NCBI GenBank assembly: GCA_016791345.1
Contig: JAEUMW010000320.1
Span: 1-35,599, forward strand
DNA: 35,599 bases
Direction: 5' to 3'
Origin: Betaproteobacteria bacterium
GTDB taxonomy: Bacteria; Pseudomonadota; Gammaproteobacteria; Burkholderiales; JAEUMW01
Under the pieces are notes generated by a model. That model worked only from the letters and a program-made list of their open reading frames with translations, was not told where the DNA came from and ran no database searches. Below are positions 3 to 20,041 of this stretch, one piece after another (positions within the stretch are counted from its first letter, which is position 1; each line of letters opens with the position of its first letter). A program made the position numbers and the translations under genes.

Positions 3-290
3 ATCTCGATGACTTCGTCCTCGACCGAAGCGTGGCTCTCGTTCTCTCTCTTCACCTACCTCGGCCCGCACCGTCGGCAGGCGTACTACGGCATGTGTCG
101 CTGGTTCGCCCGCGCTGCTCACGCCCTGCTCGGCGCGCGGCCGCACTGGGGCAAGCACTATCCGCTCGGCGCAACCGAGACCGCACGCATGTATCCGCAC
201 CTGGAGCAGTTCCGTGAGGAGTGCCGGGCGCACGATCCTGCCGGCATCTTCCGCAACGAGATGAGCGAGCGCGTTCTCGAACTGCGCTAG
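3..290 (+). CDS. FAD-linked sugar-lactone oxidase, C-terminal part (cut by window edge)
   Basis: Only the last 95 codons are visible, and the frame is open to the left edge. The residues resemble the C-terminal part of D-arabinono-1,4-lactone oxidase / FAD-linked oxidases of the VAO family: a Trp-rich stretch with YLGP, then RPHWGK, MYPHLEQF and a closing DPAGIFRN segment. Members of this family oxidise aldonolactones or related sugars using FAD; the FAD-binding half would lie outside the window, so substrate and full length cannot be judged. The TAG stop overlaps the stop of the convergent heme peroxidase gene within a CTAG tetranucleotide. An ATG at position 9 is in frame but is probably internal, because the conserved domain should begin far upstream. 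Confidence 0.7.
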   Translation: MSMTSSSTEAWLSFSLFTYLGPHRRQAYYGMCRWFARAAHALLGARPHWGKHYPLGATETARMYPHLEQFREECRAHDPAGIFRNEMSERVLELR

Positions 291-2206
291 TGGATGGCGC
301 CCGCCGGGCGCCAGGGTGCGAACGGATTGATAACGCCGACAAAGGCCGGCTTGAGAGCCGGATGATGGCGCAGGATGACGTCTTTCATGCCGGTAGCCTG
401 GATCCAATCGAGCCCGGGTTTCGTGTAGACCGCTTCGGTAAAGTCGCTGGTGAAGAAGCGATCGCTCTTCAGCCGCCGCGAGGCCATCAGGACGAAAAGG
501 CGAAAGGCGGTATCACTGAACCCGAACCCTTCGGGCAGCCGCTCGCAGAACATGCCGACCATGGTGTCGACGGCTTCCAGATCGCCACCGTAGACCGCCT
601 TGAGCTCCCCGCTGAGATCAGGCCTGACGCCCGCGAGTTCTTCCCAGGAGGTGACCGGTTTCTTCCGCAACTGGCGCCGAAATTCGTTGTAACGCGGCAC
701 CCCCCGCTCGCGGTCGCGCAGAATGTCCACCGCGGCCAGATCGAGCAGCTGCGCCCGCCGGTTGTTGGCGTCGGGTGGCACCGTGAGCTCACGCAGGAAG
801 TTGGGATAGTTCCGGATGGTGATCGCGCCCGGGTGGGCGATGCCGAAGCTGTAGACGAGGTCGTCCATCGAGGCGCCGTCGGCGAGCGGCGCGCGCGCCT
901 TCTCGAAGGCGACGTTGGGCAGCGGGTACGACCCGATCCCCGTACCGCCTTGATGTCTCTGGATCTCGACTGCGTCCGGCAGCAGCGGGTGCAGGCGGTA
1001 GACGGTGGTGAACTCCTCGGTGAGGCTGAACGGCGCGCCGTGATGGTCGGTCTCCGAAAGCGGCGCACCGGTCAGGATCTCCTTGCCGAAGAACTCGGGA
1101 AGAAAGCGCGCGATGCGTCGCGCCAGCCCTTCCCCGAACCAGTGCCCGAGCAATCCCATCCAGTTGGCATCCATTCCCGGCCCGATGGCGGGATGCCCGA
1201 GGATCCCTGGCGTCCATTCCAGGGTGTGGATCTTCGCCATGATCGCGCAGTTGACGAGTCGCGCTTTCTTGAAGATCTCGTCGTCGCTCAAGCCGAGATT
1301 GTCTTTCTCATTCGCCTTCTTGAGGTGCTCGCAGATCGCGTTGTGCTCCTTCACAAACAAGGTGTGGAGGATTTCCAGCCCCAACCACCAGTTGGAGGTA
1401 AACCCGCTCACTGTGGCACCGCTTGCCGGGTCGAAGGGCAGCAGTCCGTCGGCTCCCAGGTAGAGGCAACCGCTGGGACAAAGCAGGTGAGTCGCGGGAT
1501 CCTTGCGCAGCGCTTCCGTCTCTTGCTCGGTCTCGCCATACACCTGGGAGCCATCCCACCACTGCGGATTCTTGTTGCGATAGGCCGGATACTTTCCGTC
1601 CAGCGGCGTAAACACGTCCGGATCGACCTTCGTTCTGGGTACCGACATTTCCGCCGTCTTCCAGTCGCCCGAGCGCGGCAGCCGCAGGTCCTTCCCGGTG
1701 TCGAGCTCTTCGTTCTCGTGCGCAAACCAGTCGTGGACCTGGAACTGGATCCAGGCGGCGGCCAGGAGATTCAGGCTGTTGGCCGGCACGAACTTCTGCC
1801 GTGCCAGCAGCTTCTGGCTCACCAGCAGCGGATCGGGCGTGTAAAGCCGCGCTCGGTCGGGCGCCGTAATCTCACGCGGCACGTTGCGCCCGAAGCGGGA
1901 GCCGCGACAGCCCATCGCTGGAAAGGTGAGATCGTTCTGCGTGCCGCTTGCCGTGCGCATGCCGCGCGCCGCTTTCGGGTCATGGAACGGGCAACCGGGC
2001 TTGGGCACGGCGAGGTCGCCATCGGTATCGTGCAGGTTATGGCGCCGCAGCTCGATGCGCAGCGCAGCGAGATTCGCGATGGCCGGCCATTTCGGCAGCC
2101 GGTGCCACTCGATCCATCGATTGACGATACGGAAGGAGCACACCAGCAGACCATCGACGAGCTTCCCGAGCAGGCCGACTTTCCTGGCGTAAAGTGGATT
2201 GCTCAT
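287..2206 (-). CDS. Animal-type heme peroxidase, alpha-dioxygenase-like
   Basis: A 639-residue protein of the animal heme peroxidase / cyclooxygenase superfamily. The distal heme His is probably His158 in QVHDW. WWDGSQVYG lies at about 216-224, LFVKEHNAIC at about 283-292, and KIHTLEWT at about 325-332. The segment EFTTVYRLHPLLPD at about 398-411 supplies a Tyr403/His406 pair in the position of the catalytic Tyr and proximal His of cyclooxygenases and plant alpha-dioxygenases. These blocks fit fatty-acid alpha-dioxygenases better than myeloperoxidase-type enzymes, so oxygenation of a fatty acid is the best inference; substrate and activity are unproven. No clear signal peptide is seen, and the basic/hydrophobic N-terminus could lie on the membrane. 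The ATG is preceded by GGAG about 12 bases upstream. It starts 18 bases after the channel gene, probably in one transcript. Confidence 0.88.
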   Translation of the reverse strand: MSNPLYARKVGLLGKLVDGLLVCSFRIVNRWIEWHRLPKWPAIANLAALRIELRRHNLHDTDGDLAVPKPGCPFHDPKAARGMRTASGTQNDLTFPAMGCRGSRFGRNVPREITAPDRARLYTPDPLLVSQKLLARQKFVPANSLNLLAAAWIQFQVHDWFAHENEELDTGKDLRLPRSGDWKTAEMSVPRTKVDPDVFTPLDGKYPAYRNKNPQWWDGSQVYGETEQETEALRKDPATHLLCPSGCLYLGADGLLPFDPASGATVSGFTSNWWLGLEILHTLFVKEHNAICEHLKKANEKDNLGLSDDEIFKKARLVNCAIMAKIHTLEWTPGILGHPAIGPGMDANWMGLLGHWFGEGLARRIARFLPEFFGKEILTGAPLSETDHHGAPFSLTEEFTTVYRLHPLLPDAVEIQRHQGGTGIGSYPLPNVAFEKARAPLADGASMDDLVYSFGIAHPGAITIRNYPNFLRELTVPPDANNRRAQLLDLAAVDILRDRERGVPRYNEFRRQLRKKPVTSWEELAGVRPDLSGELKAVYGGDLEAVDTMVGMFCERLPEGFGFSDTAFRLFVLMASRRLKSDRFFTSDFTEAVYTKPGLDWIQATGMKDVILRHHPALKPAFVGVINPFAPWRPAGAIH

Positions 2207-3084: not shown

Positions 3085-3777
3085 TCAGGCCACGGCGGCA
3101 CGCGCCGCGACGGGCGCCGGCAGATCATTCTCCACGCCGCGCGCGGGCCGCTTCGCCATGGCGAGACAGAAGCGCAGGTCGCGCGTTCCACCGAGGTTGT
3201 GCCACTCGTGAAGGTGCAGACCGGAGCGGCCGACCACTTCGACCAGTTCGTGCTCGTAGGTGACGCGTCCGAAGTGGATGGTGGTCAGGCGGTGCAGCAG
3301 CGGCTTGACCTTTTCCATGACCGGGGCGCGCTTCGTGTGGATGGTCTGCGTGAAGTAGATGCGTCCGCCTGGCGCGAGCATCTGTGCAGCGTGGCGCAGC
3401 GCGCCCACCGGGTCGGGCAGCAGCATGAAGCTTGCGCTGAAATAGATCGCGTCATACGGACCGCCGCGATGATCGTACACTGACTCGAGCAGCGGCGTCA
3501 CATAGCGGCCGAGCCCGGTCTCGCCGACCAGTTTCCTGCATCGGCGAAGATAGACACCGTCGATGTCGACACCGACGATATGCAGGTCGCGCGACCTGAC
3601 GAGCGCCGCGTTGCGCACCAGCGCGCCGCCCGTACCGATGCCGACGTCGAGCAGCCGTGCGCCGCGCGGCAGGCGTTTCAGGACTTCGCGGTACCAGCCG
3701 ACGGTGAGCCCCACGAAGGTTTGATCGTAGATCCAGGCACGCATGGCATCCCTGTCAATGCGGTTGGGGAAAAGCAC
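3085..3777 (-). CDS. Class I SAM-dependent methyltransferase, substrate unknown
   Basis: A 230-residue Rossmann-fold methyltransferase. Motif I is LLDVGIGTGG at about 42-51, the acidic ribose-binding residue is probably Asp72 in GVDID, and the motif IV/post-I region reads DAIYFSASFM. A LAPGGRIYFTQT strand-loop follows, as in Methyltransf_11/25 families. These features establish SAM binding but not the substrate. The first in-frame start is GTG at 3777. An ATG at 3744 has a better Shine-Dalgarno (AGGGA about six bases away) and would give 219 residues without losing any motif, so the start is uncertain. The gene is isolated: 167 bases separate it from the channel gene and about 150 from marC, so its context gives no pathway hint. 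Confidence 0.8.
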   Translation of the reverse strand: MLFPNRIDRDAMRAWIYDQTFVGLTVGWYREVLKRLPRGARLLDVGIGTGGALVRNAALVRSRDLHIVGVDIDGVYLRRCRKLVGETGLGRYVTPLLESVYDHRGGPYDAIYFSASFMLLPDPVGALRHAAQMLAPGGRIYFTQTIHTKRAPVMEKVKPLLHRLTTIHFGRVTYEHELVEVVGRSGLHLHEWHNLGGTRDLRFCLAMAKRPARGVENDLPAPVAARAAVA

Positions 3778-3924
3778 GTGCGCCGCTCTCGCCGAGGGCA
3801 GGACGCCGCGCGCACGCCGTTCTTGTGAGCGCCGACAGTACCGCTACACCGCCCGGCGGTCAATGACACGCCGGGATGTGCGCCCGTCTGCAGCCGCGGA
3901 AAACTATCCCTCGTCCGTCCCCGG

Positions 3925-4602
3925 TCAGCTCCCGATGCCGATGCTCGCGAGCAGCGACTTGACACCGTTCCAGCCGATCTGCACACCGATGCAAAGCACG
4001 ATGAAGGCGGAAAGACGCACCATGATGATCATGCCGGTGTGACCGATCCATTGCCCGACGCGCGCTGCATAGCGGTAGGTGAGGAAGATCGCGGCGGCGA
4101 CGATGCTGGTGCCGACGATGGCAGCCACGACCTGAACGGCGACGCGCTCCACCGTGTGCGCGTGGTTCGCCCCGACCGTGATCGCCACCGAGATCGCGCC
4201 CGGGTCGATGGTGAGCGGCAGGGTCAACGGGTAGAAGGCGCGGGCCAGCGCGCTGACCTTGGCATGGTCGGCATCGGCCTGGGGTACGACGGGTCCGGAA
4301 TCGGTGCTGCCGAGCATGTTCCAGCCAAGGGCGCAGACCACCGCACCGCCCGCGATCTGTACCACCGGGATCGAGAGGTCGAAGAGGCGCAGCACCAGGG
4401 AGCCGAACAGCATCGAAGCGAGCAGCAGGACGAACGAATAGATCGTGATGCGTCGGGCTAGCTCGGCACGGGTCTCGGCGTCGCAGCCTCGCGTCATGTT
4501 GAGGAACAGGGCCGCGTCTCCCAGCGGATTGACGACGGGGAGCACGGCGCCGACTATCAGGAGCACAGCGCTGCCGAGTTGTGCGAGATCGCTCCATAGC
4601 AT
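3925..4602 (-). CDS. MarC family inner-membrane protein
   Basis: A 225-residue polytopic membrane protein of the MarC (UPF0056) family. The N-terminal hydrophobic stretch contains VLPVVNPLGD, and the middle contains FYPLTLPLTIDPGAIS, both typical of the family's duplicated NP-x-G / P-G-x-I blocks. Six hydrophobic segments can be traced. The family's physiological role is unsettled; the old link to multiple antibiotic resistance has not held up. I chose the ATG at 4602, because AAGAGGA sits seven bases upstream and the hydrophobic region begins at once; a GTG at 4641 would add 13 polar residues. The gene stands alone between the methyltransferase and the ABC exporter. Confidence 0.85.
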   Translation of the reverse strand: MLWSDLAQLGSAVLLIVGAVLPVVNPLGDAALFLNMTRGCDAETRAELARRITIYSFVLLLASMLFGSLVLRLFDLSIPVVQIAGGAVVCALGWNMLGSTDSGPVVPQADADHAKVSALARAFYPLTLPLTIDPGAISVAITVGANHAHTVERVAVQVVAAIVGTSIVAAAIFLTYRYAARVGQWIGHTGMIIMVRLSAFIVLCIGVQIGWNGVKSLLASIGIGS

Positions 4603-4790
4603 GTGACGTGAGATTCCTCTTCGGGTCTGCGTGTCCGCCACCTGGCACGCGCGCGAGGGAGACGGACGCCTGCCGAGTCAAAGGGCGGACGGTACCGCCA
4701 CCGAAGCAGACGGTCAACGGAGGCCGGGCATTGCACGAGCCCGCGCGACGCAGAGTCGCATGGGGCGCGCGGCCCGGTCGCAACCGCGGT

Positions 4791-6587
4791 CTAGAGACCG
4801 AACTGCAGTTCGGCCAGCCGCGCGTACAGCGGACTCGTCGCGATGAGTTCGGCGTGGCGACCTATCGCGACCAGGCGACCGTGCTCGATGACGGCGATGC
4901 GGTCGACGCGCTGGACCGTGGACAACCGGTGCGCGATGACGAGTGTCGTGCGCCCCTCCATGAGCCGCTCGAGCGCTGCCTGCACCATGCGCTCGCTGGC
5001 GGAATCCAGAGCGCTCGTGGCCTCGTCCAGCAGCAGAATCGGGCGGTCGGCGAGCACCGCCCGCGCGATTGCGAGCCGCTGCTTCTGCCCGCCCGACAAC
5101 CGCACACCGCGCTCGCCGAGGTAAGTTTCGTACCCCTGCGGCAGGCGGGTGACGAACTCGTCGGCAAACGCGATTGCGCACGCGGCACGCACGGCGTCAT
5201 CGTTCGCGTCGGGCCGGCCATAGCGCACGTTCTCGGCGACGCTCGCCGCGAAGATCGCCGGCTCCTGCGGCACCAGCGCGATGCGACTGCGCACCGCGAG
5301 CGGATCGGCCGCGCGCAGGTCGACACCGTCGAGGCGGATCACACCGGTGTCGGGGTCGTAGAACCGCAGCAGAAGCTGGAACACCGTGCTCTTGCCGGCG
5401 CCCGAGGGTCCGACGAGGGCCAGCTTCTCGCCGCGCGCCACGGCCAGCGACAGGGCACCGAGCGCGGGCAGGCGCGGTCGCGACGGATAACAGAACGTGA
5501 CGTTATCGAACGTAACTTCGCCGCGGGCCGGTTCCGGCAGCGGCTCCGGTCGGGCCGGCGCGCGAATCTGCGGCTCGGTGCGCAGAATTTCCAGCAGGCG
5601 TTCGGCAGCCCCGGCACCCCGCTGCAGGTCACCCACCACTTCGCTGAGCGAGCCGCAGGCGCTGGCAACCAGGGTTGCGTAGAAAACAAACGCGGAGAGC
5701 TCGCCGGCACTGATGCGCCCAGCCAGGACGTCGTGTCCGCCAACCCAGAGAATGGCCGCGACACCGCCGAAGACGACGACGATGACGGCTGCGATGAGGG
5801 CGCCGCGACTGCGGATGCGATCGACCGCGGTCGCGAACGCTGCCTCGATGCGCTGTGCGAAGTGGCGGCGCTCCACGCTCTCGTGGACGTATGCCTGCAC
5901 CACCCGGATCTCGTGCAGCGTCTCGTCGATGTGCGCGCCCAGGTCGGCAACCCGGTCCTGGCTGGCACGCGACAGTTTCCGCACGCGTCGGCCGAAGAAA
6001 AGGATCGGCAGCAGCACGGCCGGCACACCGACGAGGACGAGCAGCGTCAGCTTCGCGCTCGTGAGAAAGAGCATGCCGAGGCTGCCGGCCCCCACCACCG
6101 TATTGCGCAGCGCCATCGATACGCTGCTGCCGATGACCGTCTCCAACAGCGCCGTGTCGGCGGTCAGCCGCGAGATGAGCTCACCCGTGCGCGTTGCCTC
6201 GAAGAAACCCGGCGACAGGCGCAGCAGATGGTCGAAGACGTCGCGCCGAAGGTCGGCGATGACGCGCTCGCCCAGCCAGGAGACGAAGTAGAACCGCGCA
6301 TAGGTCGCCGCGGCCATGACGCCGACAATCGCAAGCAGCGTGAGCAGCGCCTGGTTGAGCGCGTGTGGATTGGCCGCGACGAAGCCTTCGTCGATCACGC
6401 GCTTGAGGCCTTGCCCGACCACGATGAAGCAGGCGGCCGCGACCAGCAGGGCCCCTGCCGCCGCCAGAATCTGCCGGCGATAGGGATGCGCGTAACGGCT
6501 CAGGAAGCGCAGATGCGCGAGGGTCGAAAGGGAGAACCCGCGGCGCTCGGTCTCCGTGGTACCTGCTGGGTTTACCGCATCGTTCAT
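4791..6587 (-). CDS. ABCB-type exporter half-transporter (MsbA-like)
   Basis: A 598-residue fused permease-ATPase. The N-terminal half (about 35-320) has six transmembrane helices of the type I exporter fold, including the GELISRLTADT coupling segment. The C-terminal half is the nucleotide-binding domain with Walker A GPSGAGKST, Q-loop LVPQEPAIF, signature LSGGQKQR, Walker B ILLLDEATSALD and H-loop IAHRLST, all intact. It should work as a homodimer in the inner membrane and export a lipid or amphipathic molecule. The family spans lipid A flippases and multidrug exporters, and the substrate cannot be told from sequence. The N-terminal cytosolic tail before the first helix is about 35 residues. 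No strong ribosome-binding site is visible before the ATG. It is divergent from the glutathione peroxidase gene, with 77 bases between them. Confidence 0.88.
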   Translation of the reverse strand: MNDAVNPAGTTETERRGFSLSTLAHLRFLSRYAHPYRRQILAAAGALLVAAACFIVVGQGLKRVIDEGFVAANPHALNQALLTLLAIVGVMAAATYARFYFVSWLGERVIADLRRDVFDHLLRLSPGFFEATRTGELISRLTADTALLETVIGSSVSMALRNTVVGAGSLGMLFLTSAKLTLLVLVGVPAVLLPILFFGRRVRKLSRASQDRVADLGAHIDETLHEIRVVQAYVHESVERRHFAQRIEAAFATAVDRIRSRGALIAAVIVVVFGGVAAILWVGGHDVLAGRISAGELSAFVFYATLVASACGSLSEVVGDLQRGAGAAERLLEILRTEPQIRAPARPEPLPEPARGEVTFDNVTFCYPSRPRLPALGALSLAVARGEKLALVGPSGAGKSTVFQLLLRFYDPDTGVIRLDGVDLRAADPLAVRSRIALVPQEPAIFAASVAENVRYGRPDANDDAVRAACAIAFADEFVTRLPQGYETYLGERGVRLSGGQKQRLAIARAVLADRPILLLDEATSALDSASERMVQAALERLMEGRTTLVIAHRLSTVQRVDRIAVIEHGRLVAIGRHAELIATSPLYARLAELQFGL

Positions 6588-15294: not shown

Positions 15295-15381
15295 GCCGAG
15301 ATGGCGGAATTGGTAGACGCACCAGGTTCAGGTCCTGGCGGGGGCAACCCTGTGGAGGTTCGAGTCCTCTTCTCGGCACCA
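15295..15381 (+). tRNA. tRNA-Leu (anticodon CAG)
   Basis: The 87-base gene folds as a class II tRNA. The seven-pair acceptor is GCCGAGA with TCTCGGC, the D arm contains GGTAGACGCA, and the anticodon stem is CCAGG/CCTGG around TTCAGGT, giving CAG, which reads CUG. A long variable arm follows, then a T arm with TTCGAGT, discriminator A at 15378, and an encoded CCA (15379-15381). All features agree with leucine. Confidence 0.96.
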
Positions 15382-17500: not shown

Positions 17501-18334
17501 TCAAGCAAGAAACAACGCCGGGTCCACGGCGACGGTATTCAAGTAAACGGAAAAATGCAGGTGCGGCCCCGTGACCCGCCCGGTTGCGCCGACCTTGCCG
17601 ATGGGCGCGCCGGCTGCGACCACGGCACCTGTGCGAGCACCCACCGCGGAGAGATGCGCGTAAAGCGTGAGCAGCCCCTGACCGTGGTCGAGGATCATCG
17701 TCCGGCCCGAGAAGAAATAATCGCCGACGTCAACCACCTTCCCCGCCGCTGCTGCGGCCACGGCAGTGCCCTGCGCTGCGGCGATGTCCATGCCATTGTG
17801 CGGGCTGCGCGGCTGCCCGTTGAAGAAGCGCCGCAATCCGAACGAACTCGAGCGTGGCCCGGGCACCGGCTGGACGAGTCGCAACGTCGCCGGTGGCGAC
17901 TCCGAGAAGGTCCGCCGCACCTCCTCCAGATGTGCGCGCTCCCGCTCGTAGCGCGCGAGGTCCTCCGGCGAGAGTTCCACCTGTCCGGGCTTGACCTTGA
18001 GATGCTGTTCCGCGTACTGCTTGGCGGTCACCTCGATCGCAAAACGCTTTCCGGCGCCTCCCGCTGCCTCGCGCGTCACCCACAATTGCGAGCCCGGTCG
18101 GGCGTCGAGCGGGATGCCCACCCACGCCGTCCAGTGATCGGCCTCGCGCAGGACCAGCACGCGGTCATCGCCGAGACGAGCCTGCGGTGCCGCAGCCGCG
18201 GCACCGAGGTCGATGCGTGCCACACCGCCGGGGACGCTCGCCATGCGCGGCAGGCTCTCGGCGAATGCCGCGGGCATCCACGGTGGAAGGGTCATCATCG
18301 TGCCAAATGAAACGAGAAAGCAACGGCGGTTCAT
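17501..18334 (-). CDS. Exported M23 (LytM) family peptidase
   Basis: The 277-residue protein has an N-terminal signal peptide (MNRRCFLVSF..., hydrophobic to about 20, likely cleaved after AFA near residue 25). The mature part has an N-terminal region (about 30-150) that may be a beta-rich domain with a short Glu/Arg helix (EDLARYERERAHLEEV). The C-terminal LytM domain (about 155-277) has the Zn ligands His179 and Asp183 in HNGMD and His260 in HLHF, with the further His258, so it looks catalytically competent. It should cut peptidoglycan cross-bridges in the periplasm. The ATG at 18334 is chosen for its signal peptide; the frame is open to 18448 without homology. The divergent neighbour is an MltF-like lipoprotein, suggesting a cell-wall pair. 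Confidence 0.88.
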   Translation of the reverse strand: MNRRCFLVSFGTMMTLPPWMPAAFAESLPRMASVPGGVARIDLGAAAAAPQARLGDDRVLVLREADHWTAWVGIPLDARPGSQLWVTREAAGGAGKRFAIEVTAKQYAEQHLKVKPGQVELSPEDLARYERERAHLEEVRRTFSESPPATLRLVQPVPGPRSSSFGLRRFFNGQPRSPHNGMDIAAAQGTAVAAAAAGKVVDVGDYFFSGRTMILDHGQGLLTLYAHLSAVGARTGAVVAAGAPIGKVGATGRVTGPHLHFSVYLNTVAVDPALFLA

Positions 18335-18451: not shown

Positions 18452-20041
18452 ATGCAGATTCCACCCGAGCCGCCTCGCGTCAGGCCACCACGCGCCGCCG
18501 AATGCCTGCGTCTGAAACTGGCGCGCTGCATCGCCGGCCTTGCCTGCATTTGCCTCGGTCTCCTCGCCGCCTGCAACCGGGACGCGTCACAGCCTCCGCC
18601 TTCCCCTGCGGCTCCGAACGGGCTGACGGGATCGACAGATGTCGGCACTCCCGAGAAGACCTCCGCAGGTACTGCGGGAGAGCCCGTGACGCTGGCCGAC
18701 GGATCCCTGCTGCGCTTTCGCAGCACGGTGGACCGGCGACTCGATCGGCTGCCGCTGCGCGAGATCGACACCTTGCGCGTGCTGGTCAACTACACGCGCA
18801 CGAACTTCTTCGTGAGCAAGCACGAGCCGCGCGGCTTCGAATACGAGTATCTGCGCGAGTTCGAGCGCTTCCTGAACGAGCGCGTGCGACGGCAGAAGCA
18901 TCCGATCCGGCTCGAATTCGTCGTCACCGACCTCGATCGCGCCTTGCCGGACCTGCTCGAGGGGCGAGGTGACATCGCCGCCGCGAGCCTCACCATCACG
19001 CCCGCGCGGCAGCAGAAGGTGGACTTTTCGCTGCCCTATCTGGTCGACGTCGACGAGATCGTGGTCACGAATCGCAAGGTGTCCGCGCCGGCCTCGCTCG
19101 CGGCCCTCGGTGGCAAGCGCATAGTCGTCGTGCGCGGTTCGAGCTACGCCGAGCATCTGCAGGCACTCGCGCGGGCACAGCGGGCGGCGGGGAAAGCCCC
19201 CGTCGAGGTGGTCGAAGCAAGTTCCGGCATCGAGTCCGAAGACATTCTCGAACTCGTCAATGCCGGCGTCGTAGACTATACCGTGGTCGATTCCCACCGG
19301 GCAAAGCTGTGGGCCCAGGTGCTGCCCATGATCGCCGTGCACGAGAAGCTGGCGGTGAACGTGGGCGGCAACATCGCCTGGGCGGTGCGTCCGGAAAGCC
19401 GCGAGCTGCGTGAGGCGCTCGACGCCTTCATCGACCAAGACGGTGCCCGCAGCACCCTGAACCGGATGATCTTCGACCGCTATTTTCGGGACACGCGCTG
19501 GATCGAGAATCCGGAGGCGCGCCCGCTGTTGAGGCGCCAGGCGGCCGTGGTGGAAGCCATCAAGAAGTACAGCGCCGCCGCCGGACTCGACTGGCGGCTC
19601 GTGCTGGCGCAGGCGCTCGCCGCGTCAAATCTGGAGTCGGGGCGCCGCGGCGCCGACGGGGCAATCGGCATCATGCAGGTGACGCCGGAGATGGCGGCGA
19701 AGGTCGGGGTGACCGACATCGACCGACCGGAGCGCAACATCGAGGCTGGCGTGCGCTATCTCGCGAGCTTGCGCGACGAGTACGCCCGCGGCGACCGCGC
19801 CGATGCGGGAAGCATGGATCTCGCCGTCGCCGCCTACCGCATGGGACCACGCCAGGTGCAGACGCTGCAGCGCTACGCGCGCGACCTGGGCCTCGACCCT
19901 GCCCGCTGGGAAAGAAACGTCGAGCTGGTGGCGGACCTCACGCTCGGCGATCAGCGCACGCACGAAGTGAACGAGGTCTATCTCTATTTCGAGGCTTTTC
20001 GCCTCGACGAAGCAGCGGGTAGCCCGCCCGCGCGCCGCTGA
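18452..20041 (+). CDS. MltF-like lipoprotein with degenerate transglycosylase domain
   Basis: The 529-residue protein is a probable lipoprotein: a basic N-terminus, hydrophobic core and LLAAC lipobox with Cys41. Residues about 85-325 form a type 3 periplasmic solute-binding domain (LRVLVNYTRTNFF, RGDIAAASLTITPAR, KVDFSLPY), as in MltF. Residues about 365-475 form a lysozyme-like SLT domain with GAIGIMQVTPEMA and AAYRMGPRQV. By ungapped comparison with MltF (AYQESHW), the catalytic Glu position is Ala391 in LAASNL, and the Asn of the usual AYN motif is Arg463. It is therefore probably not a working transglycosylase but a sensor, scaffold or regulator. The ATG at 18452 is preferred to a TTG nine bases upstream. 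It is divergent from the M23 gene and convergent with purA. Confidence 0.85.
   Translation: MQIPPEPPRVRPPRAAECLRLKLARCIAGLACICLGLLAACNRDASQPPPSPAAPNGLTGSTDVGTPEKTSAGTAGEPVTLADGSLLRFRSTVDRRLDRLPLREIDTLRVLVNYTRTNFFVSKHEPRGFEYEYLREFERFLNERVRRQKHPIRLEFVVTDLDRALPDLLEGRGDIAAASLTITPARQQKVDFSLPYLVDVDEIVVTNRKVSAPASLAALGGKRIVVVRGSSYAEHLQALARAQRAAGKAPVEVVEASSGIESEDILELVNAGVVDYTVVDSHRAKLWAQVLPMIAVHEKLAVNVGGNIAWAVRPESRELREALDAFIDQDGARSTLNRMIFDRYFRDTRWIENPEARPLLRRQAAVVEAIKKYSAAAGLDWRLVLAQALAASNLESGRRGADGAIGIMQVTPEMAAKVGVTDIDRPERNIEAGVRYLASLRDEYARGDRADAGSMDLAVAAYRMGPRQVQTLQRYARDLGLDPARWERNVELVADLTLGDQRTHEVNEVYLYFEAFRLDEAAGSPPARR

Follow-up and report, generated by a model that had tools for sequence, protein, structure and literature searches.

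Pseudoenzymes are well known among the M23/LytM wall proteases. Wall hydrolases that have lost their activity are proteins of a known kind, but for a naturally catalysis-dead family-1 lytic transglycosylase, or a dead MltF, no description was found in the open-access literature searched (subscription papers fall mostly outside it). The solved structure closest by sequence to the protein described here is MltF of P. aeruginosa (phmmer E 3.3e-29, residues 105-487). Its catalytic residue is Glu316, and the E316Q mutant is inactive (PMC10746161). The catalytic domain reportedly opens when muropeptides bind to the N-terminal domain (PMC10746161). A preliminary description of our locus likewise remarked that the solute-binding domain is thought to control the enzyme domain by sensing muropeptides.

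The window, which is the whole 35,599-nucleotide stretch that was analyzed, contains on its forward strand a gene for an MltF-type lipoprotein that lacks this glutamate (18452..20041). It starts with an ATG at 18452, ends with a stop codon at 20041, and encodes 529 amino acids. The lipoprotein signal peptide (18452..18574, forward strand) has the lipobox LLAAC and an asparagine at +2, with Cys41 (codon 18572-18574) as the predicted acylated residue and a helix modeled at residues 15-37, so that membrane anchoring is predicted from the sequence. It is followed by a family-3 solute-binding domain (SBP_bac_3, 18794..19486, forward strand, residues 115-345, Pfam E 1.1e-18, above the cut-off) and a lysozyme-like SLT domain (19556..20011, forward strand, residues 369-520). 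The Pfam match to the latter covers residues 369-478 and is also above the cut-off (E 4.6e-12). The AlphaFold2 model has a pLDDT of 84 overall and mostly above 90 across residues 110-520, including most of the SLT domain, and its top match in the PDB is again P. aeruginosa MltF (E 9e-28). The overall TM-score against this structure is only 0.39-0.52 (rmsd about 12-15 Å), probably as a result of a different orientation of the two domains relative to each other.

Sequence, Pfam and model thus agree with the preliminary description in assigning the protein the MltF layout of lipobox, N-terminal solute-binding domain and C-terminal SLT domain. The additional claim that the GIMQV segment is an MltF trait is correct only in part. 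The segment resembles the GxMQ motif found in many MltF-like relatives, whereas classical MltF has GLMML, and in our alignment the column contains Gln in 90 of 145 homologues and Met in the other 55. The score of the protein against the MltF equivalog model NF008112 is 172.3 bits, below the curated cut-off of 354, which places it in a wider MltF-like group and not with the E. coli-type equivalog.

Homologues were collected at three taxonomic levels, with 399 genomes sampled from the order, 369 from the class and 399 from the phylum of the source genome, which was the only genome at the family level. The alignment has 147 rows, of which 145 are from other genomes, one is the window protein and one is a paralogue from the same genome. 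Ala391 (19622..19624, forward strand) aligns with the catalytic Glu in the QES motif of P. aeruginosa MltF, so that QES becomes AAS, and this column is Glu in all 145 homologues from other genomes. Arg463 (19838..19840, forward strand) replaces the Asn of the AYN motif, which therefore reads AYR, and this Asn is likewise present in 145 of 145. Some rows are dependent on each other, several being from one genus, and the counts should be read as a measure of rarity and not as a rate. A third change, Met414 (19691..19693, forward strand), affects a column that is Thr in 99% of homologues. The structural near-invariants G406, M408, Y436, Y462, G465 and W486 are all retained. A degenerate catalytic site on a retained fold is a feature of DipM-like non-catalytic regulators of wall hydrolases, which are comparable in the way they work, and alignment and model indicate this combination here.

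These results bear out the preliminary description, which had reported an AYR motif and an apparent loss of the Glu, had numbered Ala391, Tyr462-Arg463 and Glu395 exactly, and had argued against a frameshift from the intact flanking motifs. The GC pattern by codon position (GC3 0.83) resembles that of the neighboring genes. Neither chance nor a frameshift or single-base error accounts for the substitutions. No protein without the Glu was found outside the source genome among the aligned rows of the order, class and phylum samples (plasmid matches were left out of the motif alignment). A scan of genome contigs with the window protein returned only fragments of solute-binding domains and no orthologue.

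The alignment, the AlphaFold model and the published E316Q mutant all give good support to a loss of the general acid, and we infer that the window protein is likely to have no lytic activity. It could still be an enzyme if Glu395 (19634..19636, forward strand) or another carboxylate in the groove supplied the acid, in which case it might cleave glycan slowly or act on another substrate. The groove does retain Tyr462, Met408 and Gln409, and in the phiKZ endolysin gp144, a distant enzyme with an SLT fold, the E115A variant keeps 54% of its activity, or about 30% according to earlier work (PMC5406664). For Glu395 in particular, the role of replacement acid seems unlikely. Its column lies four residues past the catalytic Glu and corresponds to the D/N of RLDQ/RLNQ, a non-catalytic position in relatives that carry both the Glu and the D/N. 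The catalytic helix of the model spans residues 381-392, with Ala391-Ser392 at its end, and the loop beyond it carries Glu395. By alignment and model, Glu395 is unlikely to take the catalytic place, the arrangement that the preliminary description had named as evidence against its own reading. Residual catalysis is also difficult to reconcile with the additional loss of Asn463 and Thr414, with the complete inactivation of P. aeruginosa MltF by E316Q, and with a paralogue that has no Glu at either place (QLSRLDQ). Overall, we consider it improbable that the protein still cleaves glycan.

This paralogue is the genome's second MltF-like protein (contig C338 of G000, locus L041, about 3671-5089) and the only other row of the alignment without the Glu and the Asn. 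QES has become QLS (Glu to Leu), SYN has become SYQ (Asn to Gln), and the Thr at column 414 is replaced by Val. No MltF-like protein with the Glu was found in the source genome, which is 96% complete. Its four other SLT proteins (one MltD-like, one Slt70-like and two short ones) all keep the Glu, so that within this genome only the MltF type has lost it.

The two proteins do not represent one duplicated dead family. A tree of 82 homologues shows the paralogue nested among enzymes of the same order, and the large group that contains these (support 96/89) excludes the window protein. In a second tree, calculated without the three altered columns, the window protein has a weak affinity to family f104 (support 80) and is once more separated from the paralogue. 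Its long branch makes the exact placement uncertain. Forcing the two proteins to be sisters costs 88 log units (p-AU 1.5e-4, catalytic columns removed). The rejection of this topology implies that the Glu and Asn losses are independent. Ten SLT columns are conserved to at least 97%; the window protein and the paralogue miss the same three, and other homologues miss at most two. A simple hypergeometric estimate for the overlap is about 0.01, which can serve only as a guide since the columns were picked from the same data. We conclude that the two proteins are probably non-cutting wall-binding or sensing proteins. Both are also altered in the C-terminal ETV motif (residues 501 and 503, 19952-19960), with E changed to Q/R and V to T/S.

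An alternative would be an artefact of assembly or contamination, with the two sequences coming from different organisms or containing errors. The assembly consists of 473 contigs and has an estimated contamination of 2.68%, and a first class-level sample of purA sequences hinted at contamination of the window contig. Genomes of the same order turned out to be closer, however, and the purA adjacent to our gene is most similar to them (76%). The tetranucleotide profiles also fit, with r of 0.996 for the window contig and 0.995 for C338, compared with 0.74-0.97 for eleven control stretches from other genomes. The reference for this comparison was the pool of the other contigs of the genome, in which four sampled contigs had no usable sequence (GC 0.000). 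Moreover, two genes are affected, and in the paralogue several base changes are needed to replace the Glu and the Asn. An artefact is therefore very improbable, and we reject contamination of the window contig.

Mean identities per domain were compared with the closest group of enzymes (group B, 45 rows). Among members of the group, the average is higher for the SLT domain, at 53%, than for the binding domain, at 43%. For the window protein compared with the group, the pattern is reversed, with 34% for the SLT domain and 38% for the binding domain (z -4.8). The binding domain retains Arg186 (19007..19009, forward strand; R in 102 of 145 homologues) and Asp280 (19289..19291, forward strand; D in 110 of 145), in the columns that we take to be the signature of family-3 binding proteins for amino-acid ligands, the Arg contacting the carboxylate and the Asp the amine. 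Judged from these comparisons, the binding domain looks to be under ordinary constraint and the SLT domain relaxed or repurposed. In the paralogue, the SLT domain is normally conserved (49%, z +0.6), and the Arg186 column contains Gln, so that a signature residue of the solute-binding domain is lost.

Relaxed selection would mean that the enzyme became dispensable and that the SLT domain now drifts, either with no SLT-related role or with the binding domain alone being important. The divergence of the window SLT domain, which unlike that of group B members is less conserved than its own binding domain, fits this explanation, as do the presence in the genome of four further SLT proteins with the Glu and the loss of both catalytic and solute-binding signature residues in the paralogue. 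It does not easily explain that both open reading frames are full length without internal stops and have normal GC by codon position, that structural near-invariants are retained and the same three columns are hit in each copy, or that the paralogue SLT domain is not over-diverged. We regard drift of a relic as a possible, though not the favored, outcome.

The gene neighborhood offers one candidate partner. Divergently oriented to the MltF-type gene and separated from it by a 117-bp gap is a gene for an M23 peptidase (17501..18334, reverse strand; Pfam M23 E 2.3e-30) that is apparently intact, with HNGMD and HLH motifs. Its signal sequence contains RR and is Tat-like. In a more specific form of the regulator explanation, a dead SLT domain would dock on a wall hydrolase, for example this M23 peptidase, and inhibit or activate it in a dominant-negative or partner-specific way. 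The common intergenic region is consistent with such a pairing, and there is a precedent in DipM, an inactive LytM-domain protein that binds and stimulates the lytic transglycosylase SdpA (PMC10336132). However, proximity by itself is weak evidence, and no matching M23 gene was found near the loci of 20 homologues or within 12 kb around the paralogue. A conserved pair of M23 peptidase and MltF-like pseudoenzyme is thus rejected, and a partner-specific role appears rather unlikely.

Other features of the surroundings were also noted. Only a few genes separate the window gene from rnr, and in another genome (G693, L175, 1920-6416) a Glu-bearing MltF-like gene adjoins rnr; the two lineages are grouped, with weak support, in one tree. 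A tRNA-Leu gene (cag; 15295-15381, forward strand) is overlapped by a spurious long open reading frame. Further away, a 639-amino acid protein (290-2206, reverse strand) matches animal haem peroxidase (PF03098, E 6.9e-96), a family uncommon in bacteria.

We propose that the window protein is an envelope lipoprotein derived from an enzyme of the lytic transglycosylase F type, in which glycan cleavage would have been lost with the replacement of three residues, the general acid/base Glu by Ala391, the Asn of AYN by Arg463 and a nearly invariant Thr by Met414. The solute-binding domain may still bind an amino-acid or muropeptide-like ligand, and the remaining SLT fold may bind peptidoglycan or another wall enzyme. 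The ligand-responsive part would then be retained, and the output would be binding to glycan or to another enzyme instead of cleavage. The same loss would have arisen independently in the second MltF-like protein, suggesting a lineage that has dispensed with MltF catalysis. We assign a probability of about 50% to the window protein being such a ligand-responsive, non-catalytic regulator or binding module that senses muropeptides or binds the wall. The invariance of Glu and Asn in 145 of 145 homologues, the three lost columns in common, the non-sister position of the paralogues and the normal conservation of the binding domain argue for it, as do the retained structural near-invariants, the modeled fold, the ordinary codon-position GC, the inactive E316Q mutant and the Glu of the four other SLT proteins. 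On the other side, the SLT divergence also fits relaxed selection, the loss of the Arg in the paralogue means that ligand sensing is not common to both copies, no conserved partner gene was found, and the Glu to Ala exchange leaves gp144 with about half of its activity (PMC5406664). The roles that the preliminary description had derived from an SLT fold without general acid (sensor, scaffold or inhibitor) appear plausible.

That one genome has lost the same three near-invariant positions twice, independently, suggests that MltF proteins which no longer catalyze may still be of use to the cell, or may at any rate be tolerated. The two losses also make it possible to test a signaling or scaffolding role of the MltF solute-binding domain apart from cutting.

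Among known systems, P. aeruginosa MltF (PDB 4p11, 5aa1-5aa4) resembles the window protein in being membrane-bound and in combining a family-3 solute-binding domain with an SLT domain. It differs in having Glu316 and an AYN motif and in being active and muropeptide-controlled (PMC10746161), whereas the window protein has Ala391, Arg463 and Met414. The closest sequences (about 31-43% identity) are records annotated as lytic transglycosylase F with QES...GxMQ...[AS]YNAG motifs, which have the same two domains and the same C-terminal helices. They occur, for example, on a Klebsiella pneumoniae plasmid (NZ_CP129856) and in numerous genomes from the phylum of the source genome, and, unlike the window protein, every aligned member from other genomes keeps the Glu and the Asn. 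The C338 paralogue shares the architecture and lacks the conserved residue at the same three positions, but differs in its replacements (Leu, Val and Gln), its tree branch, its lost binding-domain Arg and its otherwise normal SLT domain. The E115A variant of phiKZ gp144 has the same Glu to Ala change in an SLT-type catalytic domain; it is a laboratory mutant, and its residual activity indicates that loss of the Glu need not abolish activity. DipM and other inactive LytM regulators (EnvC, NlpD) are similar in the way they work, in that a wall-hydrolase fold without activity controls other hydrolases. Their fold (M23/LytM) is unrelated, and regulation has been demonstrated for them and is only proposed for the window protein. 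As a tentative extension, both MltF-type enzymes of this genome may have turned independently into non-catalytic lipoproteins that sense muropeptides or the wall and control other wall hydrolases, and would then be the lytic transglycosylase counterpart of the degenerate LytM regulators.
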